Source: a bacterium
GTDB taxonomy: Bacteria; Planctomycetota; Planctomycetia; Planctomycetales; Planctomycetaceae
Assembly: GCA_016124895.1 (NCBI GenBank)
Contig: WGMU01000018.1
Span: 62,001 to 126,000 of the forward strand
Direction of reading: 5' to 3'
Length of the DNA stretch: 64,000 nucleotides
Part shown: positions 888 to 60,393 of the stretch, one piece after another
Numbering within the stretch: the first letter of the stretch is position 1
Layout of the letters: each line of letters begins with the position of its first letter
Notes under the pieces: generated by a model
What the model saw: the letters and a program-made list of their open reading frames with translations, nothing else
Told to the model about the DNA's origin: nothing
Database searches by the model: none
Made by a program: the position numbers and the translations under genes

Positions 888-3800
888 ATGCGGGCTTGTA
901 CCTCAGCGTTCCGATCGGCCGCAGTCTTCCGGGCAGTTGTTTTCGCGGTTGCCCTGCTTTCCGGGTCAGTCGCATCTGCGCAGGAAGAGATCCGAGTCAC
1001 GACTCCGGACGGAAGAGCGCTGCCGCCGGGAGCCGTCATCCGTGGGCGGCCGGTTCCGGGCGGGCAGCCGATGCCGGCTCAGCCTGGCCAGCCGGGGAAT
1101 CAGCCCGGTAAGCCGGACGAGAAGAAGCCAGAGGGCGATAAAAAGCCGGAAGGCGACAAACCGGACGCGTCAAAGACGCCCGACGTGATCTCGCGGCCGG
1201 ACCAGCCCGAGTCGCCACCCGATCCCAAAGAGCTGCAGGTCCGTCCGAATGCGGCTGGAAAGCTGACACTCAACTTCACCGGACAGCCGTGGCCAGGCGT
1301 GCTCAAGTGGCTGGCCGAAGTCTCGAACGTCAGCCTTGACTGGCAGGAACTGCCAGGCGGGTTTCTGAACCTGGTCACTCAGCGCGAATACACCGTTCCG
1401 GAAGTACGCAACCTGATCAACCGGCATCTGCTGGCCCGCGGCTACACGCTGCTGCACCGCGGCGAGCTGATGACCGTCGCAAAGATCGAGAAGCTCAACC
1501 CGGCGCTGGTGCCACGGGTTTCGCCGAGCGACCTTGACAGCCTTGACGATTACGAGTTCGCCAAAGTGTCGTTCCCGCTGCGCTGGATGCTCGCTGAAGA
1601 GGCGACGGAAGAACTGAAGCCGATGCTCAGTCCGAACGGCAAGCTGACGGCGCTGAAGACGACGAACCGAATCGAAGCAATCGACGCGATCATCAACCTG
1701 CGCGAGATCAACACCGTGCTTGAACAGGAGCAGTCGAACGAAGGCGAAGAACGACTGGTGCGGCCTTTCGAGCTGAAGTTTGCGCGTGCGGAAGAAGTCG
1801 CCGGCCAGCTCAAGGAACTGCTGGGACTCAAAAAAGAGTCAGCTCCGATGACCCCTCAGCAGATGCAGCAGATGCAGCAGATGGCCCAGCAGCGGGCGCA
1901 GCAGAATGGCGGTAAGGGCGGGGGACCGCAGAAAGAGCCGGAGATCAGCATCGTCGCGGTGTCGCGCGAAAACGTCATTCTGGTCAACGCTCCGCCCGAC
2001 AAGATGGCGATGGTCGAGCAGGCGATCGAGATTCTCGATCAGCGTTCCGACGACTCGTACAGCGGCATCGGGGCGCTGGGGGAGACCGAGGTTTACCGGC
2101 TCTCGCACATCGATCCGGAACAGTTCATTGAGATGATGCAGGACATGGGAGCGATCTCGCCCCGAACAAGAATTCAGCCGGACAAACGCCGGCGGGCCGT
2201 CATCGTGACTGGTTCGCGGTCCGATCACATCATCGTCGAAGTGCTGATTAAGAAGCTCGACAGCCGCACGCGGACGTTTCACGTCATCCCGCTGCGCAAG
2301 CACGACGCTGAGTACGTCGCCGGCTCGATCCGCTTCATGATGGGTGAGGAAAAGGAAGAGGATAATCAGCAGTCGTCACGCCGCAGCTACTTCTTTTTCT
2401 CACCGTTCGGCAGCCGGAATAACGAGGAGCAGTACGACGACGGCGACAAGTTCCGCGTCGATGCCGACGTCGAATACAACCGGCTGCTGCTGTGGTGCAA
2501 CGAGATGGAGAAGCAGGCGGTTGATGAGCTGCTCGTCAAGCTCGGCGAGATGCCGATGCCTGGCGGCAACCCGGCGCGCCGGCGCGTCCTCAACGTCGAG
2601 AATCTCGAAGACGCCGTCAGGTTGATCGAACAGCTCCAGCAGGCCTGGCCGAATCAGAGCCGCAATCCGCTGAAGATTGCTCCGCTGCCGGAACTGCCGA
2701 AAAAGGAAGAACCAGAGGTTCCTGTCGCCCCTCAGTCGCCGGATAAGGTCGAGCCAGTTCGCAAAGCAGAGTCCGATGCGCGCAGCGTCAACGCGCCGGC
2801 CAGCGTGAGGCCAACGCCAGGCAAGCAGTCCGGCGGCGACAGCAGAACGGTGCTTCGGGCACGCGACATTTTCGGACAGCCGTCGCAGGATCCCTCTGAG
2901 GATGACCAGGCGGAGTCAAACGCGTTCATCGCGGGAGAACGTGTTCCCGAATGGCCAGCTCGCCGCGAAGTCTTCCGGCTGCTGGAAGTCAGTCAGCGCG
3001 ATGTTCCGGAGCCAGGCTCAGAGAGTGGTCTCGCGGCCGAAGACTCGACAGCCGAGGATGAACCCACAGCGGATCCTGCCGCAGAGCAGCCCGAAACAGA
3101 CAAACCTGCCGCTGGTCAATCTGCTGCCCCGAACCGATCACCACAGCCAGACGATCGCCTGAGAAGGTTGCTTGAACAGCTTCGCAGCCAGAACAGACGG
3201 TCGGAATCGCAACCGGACGACGAAGCATCGAGCGAGCCCGCCCCGATCAACGTGCGTGTCGGAGCCGACGGACAGATCTACCTCGAGTCCGACGACACCG
3301 CGGCACTCGACCTGTTCGAGGATATGCTCAACGAGTACGCCCCACCGAAACGCGACTGGCACGTGTTCGAACTCAAGTACCCCAATACCTGGGCGTACGG
3401 CATCGAGGTCATCCTTAAAGACATCTTCAAGGAGGAGATCGAGGCCGACGAAAAGGGCGGCATGGAGTACAGCCCGTTCTGGGGTTTCTATCCGAAGACA
3501 AGTTCGGATCGGGGGCCAGCGTCGCTGTCACGTCGCAAGCCGCTGAAGATTATCTCCGACCGCGATTCGCATACGATTCTGGTGCAGGGAGCATCGAAAG
3601 ATCAGTTGGTGATGATCGAGGACCTGATCGCGATTTACGACAAGCCGACGTCGACTGAGCCCGCTTCGATCCGTCGGACGAAAGTCATTCCCATCAAGTA
3701 CTCGAAAGCGAACACGATCGCTGAAGCAGTCAAAGACGTTTACCGCGATCTGCTCAGCGAAAACGACAAAGCGTTGCAGTCCGGCAAGAAAGACGACAAG

Positions 3801-48679: not shown

Positions 48680-49228
48680 CGTGAGGAGCTCCTCAGGTTC
48701 ACCAGTGGTTACGCAATAGATTGCCAGTCGATATATAGATTGGCAACCTCGGATCGTATTGTTCCTGCGAGATTCTTCAAATTCGCCATCTCGCGAGACT
48801 CGCCGACACATTTTCCCCGCCGAAGACTGAGCAGCTTGCTGGCTGGTGAATCTCCATTCAACTGGTGCGACACTGGCTCTGCCCGTTTGCGTCTGTGGGG
48901 CTTCCGCAATAGAGACCGGTTGATAGCGACCAGGCTCACCTGAGTCATTGAATGTCGGAATCCCGTCCCGTTCGCCTGGTCTGGTCGAATGCCGTTGCAG
49001 TCGACGGCGTTCATGCAGTTCCAGCGTGAGCCAGTCGTGTTCCGTGAATCCAACATGCCAACCTGCCACAATGATGAGCATCAGCCCGGTTCGTCACTCG
49101 GCGCAAATCCCGTGCCGAACGGTATTCCGCCCGACCTCTTCGCAATTCGTTTCGCAATTCGACTGAGCGATACCGTGTAATCTGACACTGAGTGATGAGT
49201 GACCGGGCTTTCGACGGAGCGGTATCCA
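48680..49228. other. Intergenic region between padR and recC, with candidate operator
   Basis: 549 bases between divergent genes. The padR-proximal end has the inverted repeat at 48721-48746. The rest shows no gene with a plausible product. It must hold the promoter of the recCBD operon. Confidence 0.45.
48721..48746. promoter_or_regulatory. Candidate PadR operator/promoter
   Basis: Inverted repeat TTGCCAGTC (48721-48729) with GATTGGCAA (48738-48746), eight of nine bases paired, flanking an AT-rich centre (GATATATA). PadR operators are often AT-rich palindromes near their own promoter, and this one lies 42 bases upstream of the padR ATG. The AT-rich centre could also serve as a -10 region. 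Confidence 0.5.
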
Positions 49229-52200
49229 ATGGCAGTGGATGTCTTTGAAGCGGCGCGGTTTGAATCGCTGTGGGAGCGGTTTGAGTCGGTGATTGCTGCG
49301 CCGCTGAGAAACCCGCTGGCGATCGAAACGGTCGTTGTGCCGGGACGCGGCTGGTCGAACTGGTTTGCCCGACGGCTGGCCGTACGGCTCGGGTGCTGGA
49401 GCGGCTTTGAGTGTCTGTCGGCCGGGCAGTGGATGTCGGAGACACTCGAATCCTTGCTCGGGCCGGAACTGGCGCCGCGACGCGAGTCCGACGCGCTAAC
49501 CTGGTTTGTCGCCAGCGAACTTCCAGGACTGCTGGACGATGACGACTTCGCTCCCGTGCGGGGATACCTCTACCGCGACGGAGCCGGCCAGGATGTTCAA
49601 CGGCTGATTGACCTCAGTCGGAACATCGGCGGGCTGTTTGACCGCTACCTGCTGTTTCGGCCCGAACTGATCGCCGCCTGGCAGCAGTCGCTCGACTGGC
49701 CGTACGCGGACCCTGATCGTGGTGGCCGGGCCACCGAGCGCCCGCCGGAAGCGACCTGGCAACGAAAGCTCTGGCAGCGAGTCGAAGCCGCCAGCGGGTT
49801 TCGCCCGGTCTCGGCAATGATCGAAGACCTGGCCTTGCGGCTCGAACAACTTGACAACGCCACTCGCGCGGAACTGCTGCCCGAGCGATTGAGCATCTGG
49901 CTGACGGGCGGCGTCGCGCCGGCACTGCTGTCTCTGATCGAAGTCATCGGTCGGTACGTCGACGTCTCGCTGTTCGCCCTCGCCCCTGCCACGCACTTCT
50001 GGAGCGACATGCAGGGACGCCGAGACCTGCTCCGCCGGCTGCGCGACAGTCACCAGTCTCTGCACGAGTTCTGTCGGCAGAACCACGTTTATCTGCTGCA
50101 TCCGCTGCTGGCCTCAATGGCGGAACCAGCCCGGCAGCAGCAGATGCTGATGGTCGACTGCGACGCTGAACCGTGGCAGTGGCAGGAGATTGACGAGTCG
50201 ATGGCGGACGTGGCTGAGGCGGAGACCTTCAGTTTGCCGGGCTGCGGGGTCAGGACATCCGCGCCAAGCAGCCATAAAACGACCGCCGCGAACAAGACTG
50301 GCAAACGCAAGTCGAAACAGAAGGCTGCCTCGCCGCAGATGCTGCTCTTTTCCGAAGACGATGACGAAGACGAGCTGGCAAGCCTCGAGCGTGCCACGGC
50401 GCCGCGGTCACTGCTCGACTGGCTGCAGCGCGGAATCCGCGCGGCACGCGAGCCGAAACCGCAATCTCTGCCGCGTGACAGCAGCGTTCGGATTCACAAT
50501 TGTCACAGTGCGGTCCGCGAAGCCGAAGTTCTCCATAACGCGATCCGTGAAGCACTCGAAGACTCGCTGACGCTGGCTCCGGAGGACGTGATCGTTCTCT
50601 GCCCGGCTCTCGATGATTACGCGTCGCTGATCGCAGCCGTCTTCGGCAGCTCGAATCGCAGCAGCGAGCGGCAGATCCCGTATCTGATTCTCGGCCTCTC
50701 GCCGCGTCGCGAACGGCCATTCGTCGATGCCTGGCTGCGGCTGATTGCCGCGTTGCAGAGCCGGTTTGAAGCGAGCCTCGTCCTCGATCTGCTGGCCTGC
50801 GAGCCGATTCGTCGCCGGGCCGGGTTTGACGAGGCCGACGTTGAACGAATCGCCGACTGGATCGCCGACGCGGCAATTCACTGGGGCCTCGACGCCGGGC
50901 ACCGCGTCGCCGAGGGGCAGCCGGAATCGGACCTCAACACGTGGCAGTTCGGCCTCGACCGCCTGCTGCTCGGATACGCCATGCCGCCCGGCGGCGGCCA
51001 GCTCGTTGGCAACACGGTCGCACTCGATCGAGTCGAAGGTCTCGCCGGCACCACACTCGGCCGGCTCGCCACGCTGCTCGATCGGCTGGCCGACTGGAAA
51101 CGTCGCCTCGAAACATCGCGGACGCTTCGGGACTGGCAGACTCTCCTCGGTCGCATGACTGATGCGTTTCTTGACGCCGAGTCTGACGAAGCCGGGCTGC
51201 AGCAGATTCTCGACGCGCTGAATACGGTCTCGTTTCTGGCGGGCGCAGCGGGCTTTGAAAACGAAGTCGCGGCCTCGGTTGTCGCCCGCGAAGTCGAACG
51301 GCTCGTCGATGCCCCACCGGGCAGCAGTGGCTTTCGCGCGGGCGGCGTCACGTTCTGCAGCCTCGACGCCGTCCGCTGCCTGCCGCATCGCGTTGTGGCT
51401 TTGCTGGGAATGAACGAAGCGACGTTTCCGCGCCGCGACCGGGCGCTCGGCTTCGACCTGATGGCCAGGCAGCGGCAGATTGGCGACGTCTCACCGCGCG
51501 ACAACGACCGTCAGTTGTTCCTCGATGCACTGCTTGCTGCTGGCGAGCGGTTCATCGTGACGTATCAGGGGCAGGATGTTCGTGGCAAATCGCAGCGTTC
51601 GCCGTCGATCGTCGTCGAAGAACTGCTCGATCTGCTCGACCGCTGCGATGCCAGCACGGAAGCTTCAACAACCGGTGCCACGGTCGAGCGTGCCACTGCC
51701 GGCTTGCCCGGCAGTGTTTCGAGTTCAGATACTGGCACTGCCGGGCAAGCCGGCAGTGGCACCCCGTTAAGAGTGGACAGTTCCCGTCAGCGATCACTCC
51801 GTGAGTCGATCTGTGTCCGGCATCCGCTGCAGAGTTTCAGTCCATCTTATTTCGACGGCGGGGACCCGAGGCTGGTCAGTTTTGACGAACGCTCACTTGA
51901 CGCGGCGCGGCGACTGGCTGGCGAACCGGCTGCTCCGCCCAGGTTCGCAGATCGCCCGCTCGAATTCGAAGACGACGGTCGTGAGATCCGGATCGACGAA
52001 CTCGAAAAGCTGATCACAGAACCCTGGCGGTTGTTTCTGGCGTCGGCAGGGATCGGCTCACTGGAGATCGAATCTGACGTCGAAGACCGGGCGTCGCTGC
52101 TGCTCGATGGCCTCGATCGCTGGCAGCTCGGCGACGAATGGCTCGATCGGCTGCTGCTTGATGAACTGCCGGAAGAGGTCATTCAACGCGTGCTGCAGCG

Positions 52201-52915
52201 TGGTGGCAGCGTGCCGGACAGCGGGCTCGGCAGCGTTCTGCTCGGGCAGATCGGCAGCGAGGCTGGCGGCATCATTGCTCAGATGCGCGACCTCGATTTC
52301 GTACCGGGACGCGAGCGGCTGGAAGTCGACCTTGATCTCGGCCGCTTCCGCATTACCGGGCGAGTCGATTACTGGTCGGCCGCCGGACTGCGACAGGTGA
52401 CGTTTTCGAGCCTCAATGCGCGACAGGAACTCAAGCTGTGGCTGCATCAGCTTCTGGTCAGCGCGACCGGAAACAGCCCGAGCCCACCGGCGGTCATGCT
52501 CGGACGCGGCCAGTCGCGGATCGCCTTTCGTGGAGTCGAACCTGAAGCCGCGCGTGCTCAACTGACTCGTCTGGCTGAACTGGCCGAGATCGCGCGCCGT
52601 TCGCCGCTGTTCTTTCTGGCGAGCGATGCGTCTATCGAGCCGGTCCGCAAGAACAAAGTGCAGTTCGACGACGAGGCGTCTGTGCGGAAGTTTCTGTCGG
52701 ACGCGCGGGGCTATTTTGAGGAAGCGCGCGGGCACGCGACGCCGCCGTGCGAAGCTCCTGATGTGCGAGCCGCGTTTGCCGGCGTCGATCCGCTCGAACT
52801 GACCTGTGCCAACGTGCCGGGGCTCGACGGGTTCGGCGACGAAAACCTGTTTGTTCGCATGGTCCGCGAGATCAGCGTGCCGCTGCTCGACGCCGCCGGG
52901 GAGGTGCCGCAATGA
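49229..52915 (+). CDS. recC: Exodeoxyribonuclease V subunit RecC
   Basis: Protein of 1228 residues (E. coli RecC is 1122). Start ATG at 49229; the GTG at 49199 in frame is less likely. The helicase-like N-terminal block is present (TVVVPGRGWSNWFARRLA, ESLLGPE). Later blocks include SLFALAPATHFWSD, VRIHNCHSAVREAEVLHNAI, VIVLCPALDDY, IPYLILGLS, VTFCSLDAVRCLPHRVVALL and FPRRDRALGFDL. RecC is the non-catalytic helicase-like subunit that binds RecB and, in enterobacteria, recognises Chi. A 73-base inverted repeat at 51690-51762 is translated in frame as an Ala/Gly/Ser/Thr-rich insertion. Overlaps recB by four bases (ATGA). Confidence 0.9.
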   Translation: MAVDVFEAARFESLWERFESVIAAPLRNPLAIETVVVPGRGWSNWFARRLAVRLGCWSGFECLSAGQWMSETLESLLGPELAPRRESDALTWFVASELPGLLDDDDFAPVRGYLYRDGAGQDVQRLIDLSRNIGGLFDRYLLFRPELIAAWQQSLDWPYADPDRGGRATERPPEATWQRKLWQRVEAASGFRPVSAMIEDLALRLEQLDNATRAELLPERLSIWLTGGVAPALLSLIEVIGRYVDVSLFALAPATHFWSDMQGRRDLLRRLRDSHQSLHEFCRQNHVYLLHPLLASMAEPARQQQMLMVDCDAEPWQWQEIDESMADVAEAETFSLPGCGVRTSAPSSHKTTAANKTGKRKSKQKAASPQMLLFSEDDDEDELASLERATAPRSLLDWLQRGIRAAREPKPQSLPRDSSVRIHNCHSAVREAEVLHNAIREALEDSLTLAPEDVIVLCPALDDYASLIAAVFGSSNRSSERQIPYLILGLSPRRERPFVDAWLRLIAALQSRFEASLVLDLLACEPIRRRAGFDEADVERIADWIADAAIHWGLDAGHRVAEGQPESDLNTWQFGLDRLLLGYAMPPGGGQLVGNTVALDRVEGLAGTTLGRLATLLDRLADWKRRLETSRTLRDWQTLLGRMTDAFLDAESDEAGLQQILDALNTVSFLAGAAGFENEVAASVVAREVERLVDAPPGSSGFRAGGVTFCSLDAVRCLPHRVVALLGMNEATFPRRDRALGFDLMARQRQIGDVSPRDNDRQLFLDALLAAGERFIVTYQGQDVRGKSQRSPSIVVEELLDLLDRCDASTEASTTGATVERATAGLPGSVSSSDTGTAGQAGSGTPLRVDSSRQRSLRESICVRHPLQSFSPSYFDGGDPRLVSFDERSLDAARRLAGEPAAPPRFADRPLEFEDDGREIRIDELEKLITEPWRLFLASAGIGSLEIESDVEDRASLLLDGLDRWQLGDEWLDRLLLDELPEEVIQRVLQRGGSVPDSGLGSVLLGQIGSEAGGIIAQMRDLDFVPGRERLEVDLDLGRFRITGRVDYWSAAGLRQVTFSSLNARQELKLWLHQLLVSATGNSPSPPAVMLGRGQSRIAFRGVEPEAARAQLTRLAELAEIARRSPLFFLASDASIEPVRKNKVQFDDEASVRKFLSDARGYFEEARGHATPPCEAPDVRAAFAGVDPLELTCANVPGLDGFGDENLFVRMVREISVPLLDAAGEVPQ
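51690..51762. repeat. Perfect inverted repeat inside recC (hairpin element, type IV, copy 1)
   Basis: Two 27-base arms, 51690-51716 and 51736-51762, are perfectly complementary around a 19-base loop. The arm starts GTGCCACTGCCGGCTTGCCC. A close relative lies between genes at 60127-60205. The copy is in frame in recC and is read as about 24 residues of low-complexity Ala/Gly/Ser/Thr sequence (AGLPGSV, GTAGQAGSG). The high identity of the arms and the second copy point to a dispersed repeat, not a chance RecC palindrome. Confidence 0.9.
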
Positions 52916-55900
52916 GCAGCTCCGGTCGAGTTCTCGACCCGGTCACGATTTCGCTCGACGGCGTTCACAGCATCGAAGCGAGTGCCGGGACCGGGAAAAC
53001 CTACACCATCACAACGCTGTATCTGCGGTACCTGCTCGAACTGGAGCAGCCCGTCGATCGAATCCTCGTGACGACGTTTACCGACGCCGCGACTGCGGAA
53101 CTGCGCAGTCGGCTGCGCGAGCGAATCACCGCAGCACGAAATCTCGTCGCGGCGTTCGACGATGGCGACGCTGCCGTTGCTGGGTCGGACGACGGCCAGT
53201 TGCTGGCGATTCTCGATCGCTGTGGTGCGTGGCAGACCGGTTCGCGCGAGAAGCTCATCGATCGTCTCGAAGCCGCGCTGCTGAGTTTCGACCAGGCTCC
53301 GGTGTTCACGATTCACGGTTTCTGCAACCGCGTCCTGCAGGAGCTGGTGTTTGAAACCGGCACGCGATTCAACGTCGAACTCGTCTCGTCCGTCGATGAT
53401 CTGATCGACGAGTGCGTCCATGACTTCGTCGCGCGGCACTGGTGCGGCAACGATCCGCACCTGTCTCGCTGGCTGCGGCTCGACCAGTCGCTGCTCGAAT
53501 CGCTGTCGAAAGCAGCGCGGGAAGCAGCAGAGAATCCGTCGTACCGGATCGTGCCGGAAAGCAAGTGCGACGATCAGGACAGTAGGCCGGATCAAACGCA
53601 GCGCCGCTCCGGCAGCATCTCGAAACAAAACGCGGACGCTAACGAACTTCTGCCGGAACGGCGCTGCGCCTGGTCCGGCCTGCTTGATGATCCGGTCGTC
53701 TCGCAGGCCGACGACCTTCTCGACGAAGTGGCGACACTCTGGGCGGACGCGAAAACAGAAATTCGCGAGTCGCTGTTCGACGCGCGCGATGCCGGGCTGC
53801 TTAACAAGAGCTGGCACGGCAAGCCAGGGCAGATCGAGCAAGGGATTGAATTTCTCGACGCGCTGGTCCGGACGCGGGCAACGGCTCTGTTCACGATCAA
53901 ACTCAAAGACGGCGAATGCGAAGTTCCAACGGATCAGCGACGACTCTCGCAGGAGTACCTCGAACGCAGTGCCAAAGCCGGGAAGAAGGAACTGACACCT
54001 CGGCACCGTGTGTTTGAAATCGTCGACGAACTGCTGGCTCTTGCTCCGGCGATCGAGCGGCTGCGCACCGAACTGCAGCGGGAACTGCTCGCCAGCGTCG
54101 CGCGGGAAACGCGGCGCAACGTCGACCGGCAGAAACGCGAACGCGGCATCATGAGCTTCGGCGACCTGCTGCATCAGGTGGACGCGGCGCTCGACGGCCC
54201 GCAGGGTGAACTGCTGCTCGGCCAGCTTCGCGAGCGATATCACGTGGCGCTGGTTGACGAGTTTCAGGATACGGACCCGGTCCAGTTCCGCATCTTCAGC
54301 CGCGTGTTTCACGAAGCTGCGACCGTCGATGCCGGGCTCGGCGAATCGGCGCGGGCCTTCGTCATGATTGGCGATCCCAAGCAGTCGATTTACCGCTTCC
54401 GCGGCGCCGACCTGCAGGCTTATCTGCAGGCAGCGCGGCAGACGCCGGTCGACAATCGCCATTCGATGGGCACGAACTGGCGGACGGATCGCTCGCTGGT
54501 CGACGCCGTGCAGCGGATCTTTGAAACGTCCGGCGACCCGTTCCTTGACGACGAGATCACCGTGCCGCCGGTTGGTGCTCGGTTCGACGACCGCCTGGCC
54601 GAACAGTCCGCGTTGATCGTCACGCTGATTCCGCGCCCCGATGACGTCGACGACGGGAAGCCGCGGTCAAAAGACGACGCTCTTGATGCTGCCGCCCGCC
54701 GGGTCGCCGCCGACATCGCTGCGCAGCTCGGGTCGCGGCAGCCGATTCCGCAGAAGAACGGCAGCCTGCGACCAGTCCGCGCGTCGGATATCGCGGTACT
54801 GGCGCGAAATGGTTTTCACCTGCGAGCGGTCCAGGCGGCGCTGAGGGACCTCAGAATCCCGTCGGTGCTGCAGACGGACGATTCGGTCTACTCGTCTGAC
54901 GAGGCCGAAGCTCTGTGTCATGTGCTGCGAGCGGTTCTCTTGCCGGGCTCACCAACGTTGCTCGCCAATGCGCTGCAGACGCCGGTATTTGGCAAGACGG
55001 CGTCGCAGCTCGCGGAACTGGCTCACGATGCCGATCAGCTTGCAGATTACTCGGAGCGTTTTCGCGACTGGCATCTGACCTGGCATCGCGATGGCGTGAT
55101 GGTCATGTGGCGAAGGCTGCTCGACGATCAGAACACGATCGTCCGCCTGGCCGGGCTGATTTCGGGCGAGCGGCAGATCACGAACCTGCTGCATCTGGGC
55201 GAGCTGCTGCATCGTTACGCGGCAGAGAATCACGCTGGCCCGGACGCCCTGCTCCGCTGGTTCGAATCACAGGTCAACGATCCGCAGCCGCGCGACGACG
55301 AAGCTCAACTGCGACTCGAAACCGACGCCGACGCCGTCCAGCTCTGCACGATCCACAAGTCGAAGGGGCTCGAATGGCCGATCGTCTACTGCCCGACGCT
55401 GTGGGCTTATCGCGATCCGGACTGGCGACGTCCCAACGTGCTGCTGTCGCGAGCCGGAGCCGGTGACTCGACGCTGGAGATCCCGGAGATCGACGTCGGC
55501 TCCGAACTGCTTGATGACCGGATCGCGAAGAACATTTCGCAGGAATTCGCCGAAGAGCGTCGGCTGCTGTATGTCGCACTGACCCGCGCCCGACACCAGT
55601 GCCATCTGCACTGGATCGCTGCCCGCGACGCCTTTCGATCGGCGCTCGGCCAGATCATTGCCGAGGGTCACTCGCCGACCGGCAAGGAGTCCGACGACGA
55701 AATCGAGACACTGCTACAGCGCTGGCTGAGACGACTCAACGTCCCGCGAACGGAACTGCGCGGCGTCGACTTCGAGGTTCCAAACGTTGTGGATTCCGGA
55801 AGCGACGGCGGACGCGTGACCAAATCGATCGCCCACTGGTCGCGCCGGCCGATTACTCGTCGGACAATCGACGCCGCCGCGCAGACAAGCTTCACCGCGC

Positions 55901-56841
55901 TGTCCCGGTCGTTCGACGCTGCCGGCAGTGGAGGCCCTGCCGATCGAGACGCTGAACCGGCAGGCCGGCTGGCAACCGAACTGCTGACAGTCAACAACGA
56001 CTCCGAACTGCCACTCGCCCGGATGCCCGGTGGCGTTGACATTGGCTCGCTGGTGCATGACGTTTTTGAGTCCGTCCTGACTGCCGGCTGGGACTCGATT
56101 CGCTGCGACTCAGCACTGGTCGATCACGTTGAGAATCGGCTGGCCGAGCAGATGCCGCGCGTGCAACTCGACGATCGCTGGCGAACGCCACTGGCCGCTG
56201 CGATGACTCGCTGCCTGACCCAGCCGCTGGCGGACATGGACGGCTCTCTGCGGCTGATCGACGTCCCGCGAAGAAAGCTCGCGTGCGAGCTGCCGTTCGT
56301 GCTGAGCTGCGGCGACTGGGCTCTCACGTCGAGCAGAGGAGGTCAGAGTGGCAGCGGTTTCCGCACTGAGGCACTCGCCAACGCTCTGACGGATGGAGGG
56401 GCTCACGGAGACGCAGCCTTCGGGGCCATGCTCAGCGAATATGCGCCGCGAGTTCGTCTGATGAACGCTCCTCTGGCGCGAGGCTTTCTGTCGGGCTTCG
56501 TTGACCTGATCGTCGAACATGACGGTCGCTGGTACCTGATCGACTACAAGACAAATCAGCTTGGCCCGAACGTTGAACACTTCGGGTTGCCGGCGCTGCG
56601 GGAGGCGATGATCGAACACGACTATCTGCTGCAACTGCTGCTGTACTGCGTCGCGCTGCAACGACATCTGAAGCGGCGGCTGCCGGGTTTCAACTGGGAG
56701 CGTGACTTCGGCGGCGTGCTTTACCTGTTCGTTCGTGGCTTCGCAGAGAACGCGCCGGCCGAGAGCGGCATCTTTGCCGCGCGTCCGGATGCGGCACTGA
56801 TCGATCGCCTCTCCAGAGTTCTGTCGCGGGAGGTCGTCTGA
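52912..56841 (+). CDS. recB: Exodeoxyribonuclease V subunit RecB (helicase-nuclease)
   Basis: Protein of 1309 residues (E. coli RecB is 1180). Walker A is in IEASAGTGKTYTITTLYLRY (about 24-32). SF1 motifs follow: VDEFQDTDPVQFRIF, GDPKQSIYRFRGADLQ (near 486-500), TIHKSKGLEWPIVYCP and YVALTRARHQCHLHW. The C-terminal RecB nuclease domain has GFVDLIVEHDGRWYLIDYKT, with the catalytic Asp/Lys (near 1211). An extra Ser/Arg/Asn-rich segment near residues 223-257 is encoded by an inverted repeat element. RecBCD resects double-strand breaks. Start codon overlaps recC stop by four bases; stop overlaps recD start by one. Confidence 0.96.
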   Translation: MSSSGRVLDPVTISLDGVHSIEASAGTGKTYTITTLYLRYLLELEQPVDRILVTTFTDAATAELRSRLRERITAARNLVAAFDDGDAAVAGSDDGQLLAILDRCGAWQTGSREKLIDRLEAALLSFDQAPVFTIHGFCNRVLQELVFETGTRFNVELVSSVDDLIDECVHDFVARHWCGNDPHLSRWLRLDQSLLESLSKAAREAAENPSYRIVPESKCDDQDSRPDQTQRRSGSISKQNADANELLPERRCAWSGLLDDPVVSQADDLLDEVATLWADAKTEIRESLFDARDAGLLNKSWHGKPGQIEQGIEFLDALVRTRATALFTIKLKDGECEVPTDQRRLSQEYLERSAKAGKKELTPRHRVFEIVDELLALAPAIERLRTELQRELLASVARETRRNVDRQKRERGIMSFGDLLHQVDAALDGPQGELLLGQLRERYHVALVDEFQDTDPVQFRIFSRVFHEAATVDAGLGESARAFVMIGDPKQSIYRFRGADLQAYLQAARQTPVDNRHSMGTNWRTDRSLVDAVQRIFETSGDPFLDDEITVPPVGARFDDRLAEQSALIVTLIPRPDDVDDGKPRSKDDALDAAARRVAADIAAQLGSRQPIPQKNGSLRPVRASDIAVLARNGFHLRAVQAALRDLRIPSVLQTDDSVYSSDEAEALCHVLRAVLLPGSPTLLANALQTPVFGKTASQLAELAHDADQLADYSERFRDWHLTWHRDGVMVMWRRLLDDQNTIVRLAGLISGERQITNLLHLGELLHRYAAENHAGPDALLRWFESQVNDPQPRDDEAQLRLETDADAVQLCTIHKSKGLEWPIVYCPTLWAYRDPDWRRPNVLLSRAGAGDSTLEIPEIDVGSELLDDRIAKNISQEFAEERRLLYVALTRARHQCHLHWIAARDAFRSALGQIIAEGHSPTGKESDDEIETLLQRWLRRLNVPRTELRGVDFEVPNVVDSGSDGGRVTKSIAHWSRRPITRRTIDAAAQTSFTALSRSFDAAGSGGPADRDAEPAGRLATELLTVNNDSELPLARMPGGVDIGSLVHDVFESVLTAGWDSIRCDSALVDHVENRLAEQMPRVQLDDRWRTPLAAAMTRCLTQPLADMDGSLRLIDVPRRKLACELPFVLSCGDWALTSSRGGQSGSGFRTEALANALTDGGAHGDAAFGAMLSEYAPRVRLMNAPLARGFLSGFVDLIVEHDGRWYLIDYKTNQLGPNVEHFGLPALREAMIEHDYLLQLLLYCVALQRHLKRRLPGFNWERDFGGVLYLFVRGFAENAPAESGIFAARPDAALIDRLSRVLSREVV
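53583..53682. repeat. Inverted repeat inside recB (hairpin element, type III)
   Basis: Arms of 33 bases (53583-53615 and 53650-53682) pair at 28 of 33 positions around a 34-base loop. The core GGCCGGATCAAACGCAGCGC recurs, in near-identical form, in the element next to the sulfatase stop at 36653-36741. It is read in frame as about 33 extra residues between two RecB helicase segments. Placement avoids all visible RecB motifs. Confidence 0.85.
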
Positions 56842-58877
56842 TGCCGGTTTCGTTCGAACAACTGAAAACTCACGGGCTGCTCGCGCCGATTCACCTTGCC
56901 CTCGCCGAGTCGTTCCGGCGTCTGGACCCGAACGTGTCGGAAGGCGTCGTCCTCGCGGCGGCCCTCGCCGGCGAGCAGCTCAGTCGCGGCCACGTCTGTC
57001 TCGATCTCGATTCACTGGACTCGGTCTCGTTTCAGCCGGCCGATCTCGACGTACCGGCGCGAACGATTTCCGACTGGCCGCACCGCGCCGACTGGGCTCA
57101 CTGTCTGCAGAACAGCTCGCTGGTCACAACGATTGAAGCGTCGGCCAGTGACGACTGCCGGTCACCCGACACACCGCTCGTCTTTGACACGCAGCACCAC
57201 CGCGTCTATCTCGCCCGGTACTGGCATTACGAGCAAACTCTGGCTGCACTGATTCGACGCCGGGTGAACTCACCGTTGCAGCCGCCCGACGAAGCGAAGC
57301 TGCAGCAGGACATTGCGACGCTGTTTCCCGATCGCGACACGCCCGGCGGCCGCGGCCAGTGCCTCGCCGCAGCGAACGCGATTGACCGATCGTTTGCTGT
57401 GATCACCGGCGGGCCTGGCACGGGCAAGACAACGACGGTTGCCCGTCTGCTGGCACTGCGGCTGCTGCAGGCTCGCGTGACTGACGGAGAATCCGGCAGC
57501 GGGTCTCAGATCAACAGTGGTCTGCGTGTTCTGCTGATGGCTCCCACCGGGAAGGCGGCACAGCGGCTGAACGAGTCGCTGCAGCGTGCGGCGGCCCGGC
57601 TGCAGATCGACAAGGATGTTCGAGCGGCACTCAACGAGATCGCCGCCGGAACGATTCACCGCGTGCTGGGCTGGACACCGACTCCGCCCGAACGCGGCGG
57701 ACCGTTCCGGCACAACGCCGATCATCCGCTCGACGCCGACATCGTGCTCGTCGACGAAGCCTCAATGGTCGACGTCGGCCTGATGTGCCGACTGTTCGAG
57801 GCGGTTCCGGCGGATGCTCAGATCATCCTGATGGGCGACCACGATCAGCTCGCGTCGGTCGAGGCCGGCGGAATTCTCGGCGACCTGTGCGGCGACCTCG
57901 CAGGCGAGGCCCTCAACGTCGACGTAGACCGCGGACAGGTTCTCGCCGCGAGAACAGGCCTCGATTTGACGCGGAACGACGGCACAGCAGTCTCGAAGAC
58001 GACCGGGCCGACTCCGCTGCAGCGCAGCATCGTCGCACTGACGTTCAGTCATCGGTTTTCGTCGGAGAGTCAGCTCGGCCAACTGGCAGCGGCGATTCGC
58101 GCCGGAGACGCCAGCACGGCAATCGCGCTGCTGGCTGACTCCAACTCGGAACAGATTGAATGGCTGCCCGGCCGCAACTTCACTGCAACACTGGACGAGG
58201 TTGTCCGTCGCGCCGCACTCGGCTACTCAAGCTACCTCGAACTGTTGAGACAGCAACCAGCCGGAAGTGCAAACGTGCTCGGCGAGCTGAACCGTCAGCG
58301 CGTCCTGTGCGCCCATCGCGATGGTCAGGCGGGCGAGTCGACGCTCAATCACCGCATCACCGACCGGTTGGCAGCGATCGGTCTGATCCGCCCCGTCCGG
58401 CAGCATTATTCCGGTCGACCGGTCATGGTGACGCGGAACGATTACCGGCTGAACCTGTTTAACGGCGATGTCGGCGTCGTTGTCCGCGAGTCCGGCCGCG
58501 CGACAGGTTCTGGCCGGGCAGGGAGTTCCGACAGCGCAGTGCTGTTTGAAGATTCAACGTCCGAAGACGGCGTCCGCCGCGTTCCGGAATCGCTCGTCCC
58601 CGACGCTCAGGACTGCTTCGCCATGACGATCCACAAGAGCCAGGGCTCCGAGTTCCATCACGTCCTGCTGGTCCTGCCGCCGATGGACTCGCCGGTCCTC
58701 TCCCGCGAACTGCTCTACACCGCGGTGACGCGAGTGAAGGACGAGTTCGACGCCGCGACGGGAAAAACACAGCCTGGCCAGTTGTGCCTCGCCGCGTCAG
58801 AAACTGTCCTGCGTGCAGCGATTGATCGCCAGATTCGCCGAACCAGCGGTGTTCGAGACGCCATCGAAAAGCAATGA
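56841..58877 (+). CDS. recD: Exodeoxyribonuclease V subunit RecD (helicase)
   Basis: Protein of 678 residues (E. coli RecD is 608). The N-terminal domain is weakly conserved. The SF1B helicase core has Walker A (ITGGPGTGKTTTVARLLAL, about 188-206), APTGKAAQRLNESL, Walker B VLVDEASMVDVGLM (near 305), GDHDQLASVEAGGIL, and motif V/VI AMTIHKSQGSEFHHVLLVLP and LLYTAVTRVK. RecD is the fast 5'-3' helicase subunit. Start overlaps recB stop (TGATG). The operon order recC-recB-recD is complete and translationally coupled. No terminator is seen before the convergent next gene. Confidence 0.96.
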   Translation: MPVSFEQLKTHGLLAPIHLALAESFRRLDPNVSEGVVLAAALAGEQLSRGHVCLDLDSLDSVSFQPADLDVPARTISDWPHRADWAHCLQNSSLVTTIEASASDDCRSPDTPLVFDTQHHRVYLARYWHYEQTLAALIRRRVNSPLQPPDEAKLQQDIATLFPDRDTPGGRGQCLAAANAIDRSFAVITGGPGTGKTTTVARLLALRLLQARVTDGESGSGSQINSGLRVLLMAPTGKAAQRLNESLQRAAARLQIDKDVRAALNEIAAGTIHRVLGWTPTPPERGGPFRHNADHPLDADIVLVDEASMVDVGLMCRLFEAVPADAQIILMGDHDQLASVEAGGILGDLCGDLAGEALNVDVDRGQVLAARTGLDLTRNDGTAVSKTTGPTPLQRSIVALTFSHRFSSESQLGQLAAAIRAGDASTAIALLADSNSEQIEWLPGRNFTATLDEVVRRAALGYSSYLELLRQQPAGSANVLGELNRQRVLCAHRDGQAGESTLNHRITDRLAAIGLIRPVRQHYSGRPVMVTRNDYRLNLFNGDVGVVVRESGRATGSGRAGSSDSAVLFEDSTSEDGVRRVPESLVPDAQDCFAMTIHKSQGSEFHHVLLVLPPMDSPVLSRELLYTAVTRVKDEFDAATGKTQPGQLCLAASETVLRAAIDRQIRRTSGVRDAIEKQ

Positions 58878-59826: not shown

Positions 59827-60393
59827 GACGAGACTCCCTTTTCGTCTGCCGGGGCAGCTTACGTCTGAGAAACAGAGTCGCGCACGGTCTCACACCTGCC
59901 GCACGGCGACACCCCTGCCGGAAGAATCGGCACAACCGTCAGCCTCGCTTGAACTTTCCTGACTTAACAGGCGGCCAAATGGCTGATTCACCTGGCACTG
60001 CTTTCCGGAAAACCAGGGATCGCCAGCGAGTTGTCTCAGCGCAAAAGCACAGAGTCGCAAGGATTCGCGAAGACATTGCGTTGCTCACGAGCAACTACTT
60101 GTTTTTGACAGGAAACTCGTCGTGTTGGGTGCCACTGCTGGCTTGCCCAGCAATGTGGATTCAAGTGCAAGCAGGACACTACTGGGTAAGCCAGCAGTGG
60201 CACCCGACTGACTAACCGGGAATTTGTTGCCGACACATTCCATACTCAACTCATCTGTGTGAACTCAGTGTTGATCCGTGGCTGAAAATCGAGACTTGTG
60301 GCTCGACCGCGCGGTGGACCTTCACGTCTTCGCGCTGAGGACAATCTGGAATGAGCGTGTGATCCCTGTTGTCGCTACCCATTATTGACTGAG
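59827..60393. other. Intergenic region containing a type IV hairpin element
   Basis: 567 bases between two leftward genes. It contains the inverted repeat at 60127-60205 and no convincing coding frame; frames crossing the repeat are short and low-complexity. It should carry the promoter of the secreted repeat protein. Confidence 0.45.
60127..60205. repeat. Inverted repeat (hairpin element, type IV, copy 2)
   Basis: Arms of 29 bases (60127-60155 and 60177-60205) pair at 26 of 29 positions around a 21-base loop. The arm starts GGGTGCCACTGCTGGCTTGC, matching the recC element except for a few transitions. Its partner inside recC shows that this is a dispersed family in this genome. Confidence 0.88.

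Follow-up and report, generated by a model that had tools for sequence, protein, structure and literature searches.

The recC gene and its insert

The 64-kb window analysed here, meaning the whole stretch of DNA under study, belongs to a planctomycete in which recC, recB and recD adjoin one another (49199-58877). The recC gene, encoding exodeoxyribonuclease V gamma, occupies 49199..52915 on the + strand and hosts, in frame, a 73-bp doublet of repetitive extragenic palindrome (REP) units of the BIME/REPIN type at 51690..51762. The doublet, which as a palindrome is assigned to neither strand, spans about residues 831-855 of the protein, within a variable linker flanked by two conserved segments, and maps between residues about 756 and 767 of E. 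coli RecC. RecC matches were found in only 7 of the 101 genomes of this bacterial family that were searched, the genome of the window included.

The element consists of two inverted 27-base units, each made of a GTGC foot followed by CACTGCCGG-CTTGC-CCGGCAGTG. The left unit (51690..51716, + strand) has the stem CACTGCCGG/CCGGCAGTG and the loop CTTGC, and folds on its own; the right unit (51736..51762, − strand) is its inverted counterpart, and neither shows a mismatch to the unit pattern. They are separated by a 19-base spacer (51717..51735), in which most other copies differ according to the alignment. Folding the element as a DNA single strand, extended by 5 bases to either side, gave -41.3 kcal/mol for one strand and -43.2 kcal/mol for the other, with a z-score of about -11 for both and none of 200 shuffled sequences equally stable. 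A single arm (51690-51720, 31 nt) forms its own 9-bp hairpin (-11.4 kcal/mol, z -5.4). With 27 nt, a 9-bp stem and a 5-nt loop, the unit falls within the 20-40 nt expected of a REP. Because each arm is itself a hairpin, the recC element is a pair of REPs (BIME/REPIN) rather than a plain palindrome with terminal repeats. A search of the 64-kb window against Rfam gave no match.

An earlier note on this DNA, made from the letters alone, had described a hairpin with two fully complementary 27-base arms that left the recC frame unbroken and encoded a low-complexity insert. Direct sequence comparison bears this out, since 51690-51716 and 51736-51762 are perfectly complementary over 27 bases across a 19-base gap. 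The frame stays open across the doublet for 1238 aa and its product matches the recC equivalog TIGR01450 with 635 bits (cut-off 583), while the insert translates as RATAGLPGSVSSSDTGTAGQAGSGT. The individual hairpins of the arms and the spread of the family over the genome go beyond that description.

A family of REP units

The genome-wide search proposed by the earlier note uncovered 75 units with at most 3 mismatches to the pattern in the 8.13-Mb genome (G000), against 0 for the reversed pattern used as a control. The 42 regions fetched contain 46 REP sites, mostly +/- doublets of 65 to 79 bp, together with some lone units and some wider spacings. Near the end of one contig, two lone units in the same orientation lie 400 bases apart (L048:3048-3473). 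Nearly all units carry the foot GTGC and a few GTGG, the canonical REP foot being GT[AG]G. When the copies are aligned, the arms are close while most spacers are unlike one another. The intergenic relative that had been placed near 60127-60205 is a second doublet of 75 bp at 60129..60203, likewise without assigned strand, with a left unit at 60129..60155 (+ strand, 1 mismatch) and a right unit at 60177..60203 (− strand, 2 mismatches). It is a weaker relative (folding z -6.2 and -7.6) and its spacer is the one common to an intergenic subtype that also includes L055, L062 and L070.

The unit is present in 60 of 150 genomes of the bacterial family, with up to 147 copies per genome, and the GTGG foot, common in units of genus g39, also occurs in related genomes. 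Stem pairing is 100% across 14 REP variants of the family, and 3 of the 9 pairs have changed on both sides. The resulting covariation score (0.305, shuffled mean 0.088) was reached by none of 500 shuffles; as the variants were hand-picked from listings, it shows the pattern of covariation and not its frequency.

A cognate RAYT transposase

Eight Y1_Tnp matches were found in G000. One of them, an open reading frame of 195 aa (L049:3122-3709), matches the NCBIfam model REP_Tyr_transpos (NF047646) with 88 bits (cut-off 80) and lies between two inverted units, one 61 bases upstream (3034-3060, + strand) and one 18 bases downstream (3728-3754, − strand). This is the arrangement of a RAYT gene, or REPtron, in which a Y1/HUH gene is enclosed by its cognate REPs. 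By sequence, the best solved relative of its product is E. coli TnpArep (4er8), a weak match (E 0.0016) in which the H-x-H and DYIxxNPV segments align. Six regions fetched from G000 for its other Y1_Tnp genes contain 0 REP units.

Related RAYT genes at 29 loci from other genomes of the bacterial family were examined for flanking units. Ten of them (51-58% identical; L124, L125, L126, L132, L134, L135, L140, L144, L145 and L147) are bracketed in the same way, with a + unit just upstream and a − unit just downstream at 0-5 mismatches. Units are found on either side of the gene at L131 in a different arrangement, and a single unit at L120 (a RAYT of G066, 63% identical) and at some other loci, the remainder of the 29 having no unit at ≤5 mismatches. 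A cognate RAYT was not found in the 84% complete genome of G043, which belongs to the same genus as G000. The only Y1 gene near REP units in G043 is 33% identical and carries one in-frame TGA; two units lie about 300 and 560 bases from this broken, distant gene (L181:1907-2213, contig C590).

Copies inside genes share one reading phase

Twelve of the 46 sites in G000 were accepted as copies inside genes, nine strictly and three with less certainty. Besides recC, the strict hosts identified by Pfam are lhr (L054), ileS (L056), a U32 peptidase gene (L058), an oxoprolinase gene (L064), murG (L066), an HTTM gene (L073), uvrA (L077) and leuS (L086). The less certain hosts encode an SQH-like protein (L075), a PMT_2 protein with the copy in its C-terminus (L065), a placement that an analogous arrangement in G043 supports, and an FGE-sulfatase protein (L067). 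With a codon-score classifier, just 6 in-gene copies were recovered in G000, and flanks in G066 almost never scored as coding; being too weak alone, the classifier was replaced by Pfam matches combined with open-frame length. Several long open frames over REP sites were excluded when a flank failed to score as coding, when no domain was recognised or when the element preceded the likely start (L048, L049, L051, L055, L059, L060, L063, L071, L074, L076, L082 and L087).

All twelve copies are entered in the same one of the three phases, reading GATAG, SATAG, RATAG, GGTAG... or the mirror TAGQAGSGT. The probability of such agreement is 3 x (1/3)^12 = 5.6e-6 for n=12; applied to the nine strict cases, this formula gives 1.5e-4. 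Because the element is palindromic, it offers the same three possible peptides whichever its orientation. The accepted phase yields a linker-like peptide of small residues, GATAGLPGS...TAGQAGSGT, while the two others are hydrophobic or rich in Cys, Trp and His (VPLLACPAV... and GCHCWLAQQC...). The copies in lhr and in the SQH-like gene have spacers of a different length and are therefore left in another phase.

Wherever mapping worked, the in-gene inserts were located at linkers. The murG insert sits between two Glyco_transf_28 domains and that of uvrA where its two halves join. The genes ileS, leuS and murG are normally essential in bacteria, so their inserts can be presumed to be tolerated unless a host gene has a second copy.

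Occupied and empty sites in relatives

DNA alignments and the RecC comparison showed that G043 lacks the copies in recC, murG, leuS and the oxoprolinase and HTTM genes, while it has those in lhr, U32, uvrA and SQH in common with G000. The comparison of RecC among relatives suggested by the earlier note found the segment absent from the other RecCs of the family: the linker is short in four other genomes, is replaced by an unrelated acidic linker in G073, and carries in the RecC of G043 (77% identical) a repeat of another type, CCCTCACCCC.GCCCTCTCCC. At the lhr linker, the REP is present in G000, G043 and G106 (genus g32) and the CCCTCACCCC.GCCCTCTCCC repeat in G093. The presence of one or the other repeat at the same linkers indicates repeated use of a few linkers. 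Since linkers vary between species, exact insertion boundaries cannot be fixed. The sites aligned to G043 showed no evident target duplication.

The second repeat is found in frame in recC of G043 (L102, complement of 2616-2871), in the SQH-like gene of G000 (L075, about 3088-3140) and in lhr of G093 (L167), reading PLTPALSP or PLTLTLSP in two of these three genes; twice it occupies a linker where a relative has the REP. It was counted once in G000, 23 times in G043, 12 times in G093 and 65 times in G066.

In the four shared doublets (lhr, U32, uvrA and SQH), 201 of 216 arm bases are identical. Identity in their spacers is 45-73% and in their flanks mostly 64-85%, with one flank at 43% (gaps counted as differences). 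A fifth shared copy (L059:904-976 in G000 and L186:2352-2424 on contig C721 of G043), apparently intergenic and upstream of an amidohydrolase gene, has 54/54 identical arm bases beside flanks at 56%. As this copy is equally conserved in its arms, arm conservation alone is no sign of protein function; it could possibly arise from upkeep at the DNA level, re-insertion or gene conversion.

The location inside genes differs between genera. The complete genome of G066, from another genus, has 147 units, and a long open frame runs through only 1 of the 81 sites examined, close to the beginning of what may be an ECF sigma factor gene. The difference from G000 (12/46 against 1/81, Fisher p 1.7e-5) is to be read as a comparison that is not fully even, in-gene status having been decided in G000 from Pfam matches and visual inspection and in G066 from frame length; frame length alone (≥250 aa, 150-base margins) gives 19/46 and 1/81. 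Of 8 sites in G106, one falls within lhr and another close to where a penicillin-binding protein gene starts, and 30 sites in three further genera included no clear case internal to a gene.

Origin and maintenance of the insert

The REP in recC is best read, from its sequence and distribution, as a tolerated selfish insertion that would not be a functional part of RecC. More fully, we consider it, with a probability of about 0.87, to be a non-autonomous inverted REP pair spread by a RAYT and tolerated where it landed. The RAYT of G000 (TnpA_REP, HUH/Y1) is most likely the enzyme that spread the doublets, its cutting and spreading of these units being extrapolated from its family (PMC8266576, PMC2817692). 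It would recognise the REP pair as single-stranded hairpins and move copies to new places; copies inside genes would survive only where the frame is kept and the protein tolerates the insert, and of the three phases of the palindrome, the linker-like GATAGLPGS...TAGQAGSGT would be the one accepted. The suggestion of the earlier note that a mobile, translatable hairpin comparable to those of Rickettsia lies in recC is supported by the copy number, the empty sites and the presence of copies in at least 8 other conserved genes. Its mobile palindrome is retained, and its identity can now be specified as an inverted REP pair with a cognate RAYT.

A short element with long inverted arms could also be a MITE that derives from a DDE transposon and has terminal inverted repeats of 27 bp. 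However, every arm is a hairpin with a conserved loop and a covarying stem, lone units exist, target duplication is not apparent at the sites aligned to G043, and the transposase bracketed by the units is of the Y1/HUH type. Such an origin is very improbable, and it was rejected on account of the hairpin arms, the lone units and the Y1/HUH transposase. The site is a variable linker among relatives, which would suit a low-complexity RecC linker of ancestral origin in which a palindrome arose by chance, but an identical or near-identical 27-mer recurs at dozens of unrelated sites and the linkers of relatives are short or different. The chance of this is negligible, the copy number alone refuting it.

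Co-option is a further alternative: the hairpins inside genes could have been selected to tune expression through mRNA structure or translation pausing, or as useful flexible linkers. The arms kept in the shared lhr, U32, uvrA and SQH copies, next to their diverged spacers, would agree with this. The intergenic copy with its unchanged arms argues against it, as do the several lineage-specific copies whose host genes are present and open in G043 without them, and we find co-option improbable. A bolder extension of the tolerated-insertion reading, which we consider unlikely, is that the RAYT keeps rewriting the hairpin arms in place, conserved genes included, which would leave the arms near-identical between species while spacers and flanks drift and permissive linkers are reused. 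If true, a domesticated transposase would persistently edit conserved proteins of this clade.

Comparison with known systems

The elements resemble the REP/BIME/REPIN and RAYT systems in their short hairpin units, inverted doublets, many dispersed copies and bracketed RAYT gene, a cognate RAYT gene between two inverted REP units being a known arrangement (PMC2817692). They differ in a foot that is mostly GTGC instead of GT[AG]G, in a moderate copy number (75 units) and in the location of about 12 of 46 sites in genes, REPs being usually intergenic. The canonical foot is GT[AG]G, although some RAYT classes have atypical feet, and RAYT genes with in-frame REPs within themselves are known (PMC6006769).

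REPs located inside genes have been on record since 2013 for Opitutus terrae, Xanthomonas, Thauera and others; their targets include recBCD, uvrA and tRNA synthetases, and the sites that tolerate them were argued to be possibly flexible (PMC3733652). Those REPs and REP dimers likewise lie in frame in genes, whereas the family and host group are new here, and the single-phase and genus-contrast tests seem to have no counterpart in the available text. Translated REPs are already in the literature; the present case is unusually complete in pairing the element with its transposase and with empty sites.

The classic translated palindromes are the RPEs, of about 150 bp (reviewed in PMC10969869). Judged by sequence, the REPs share with them the in-frame insertion of a palindrome into unrelated conserved genes, here nine strict and three probable ones, where it would be read as an extra peptide. 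To our knowledge, no mobiliser has been assigned to the RPEs, whereas a cognate RAYT is identified for the REP. The two kinds of element work alike, and membership is not claimed. It has long been asked how translated palindromes such as the RPEs spread and come to be tolerated. Here one can compare the element and its likely transposase, the same genes with and without the insert in two genomes of one genus, and another genus that keeps its REPs out of genes, the single phase showing how a palindrome restricts the peptide choices of a selfish insertion.
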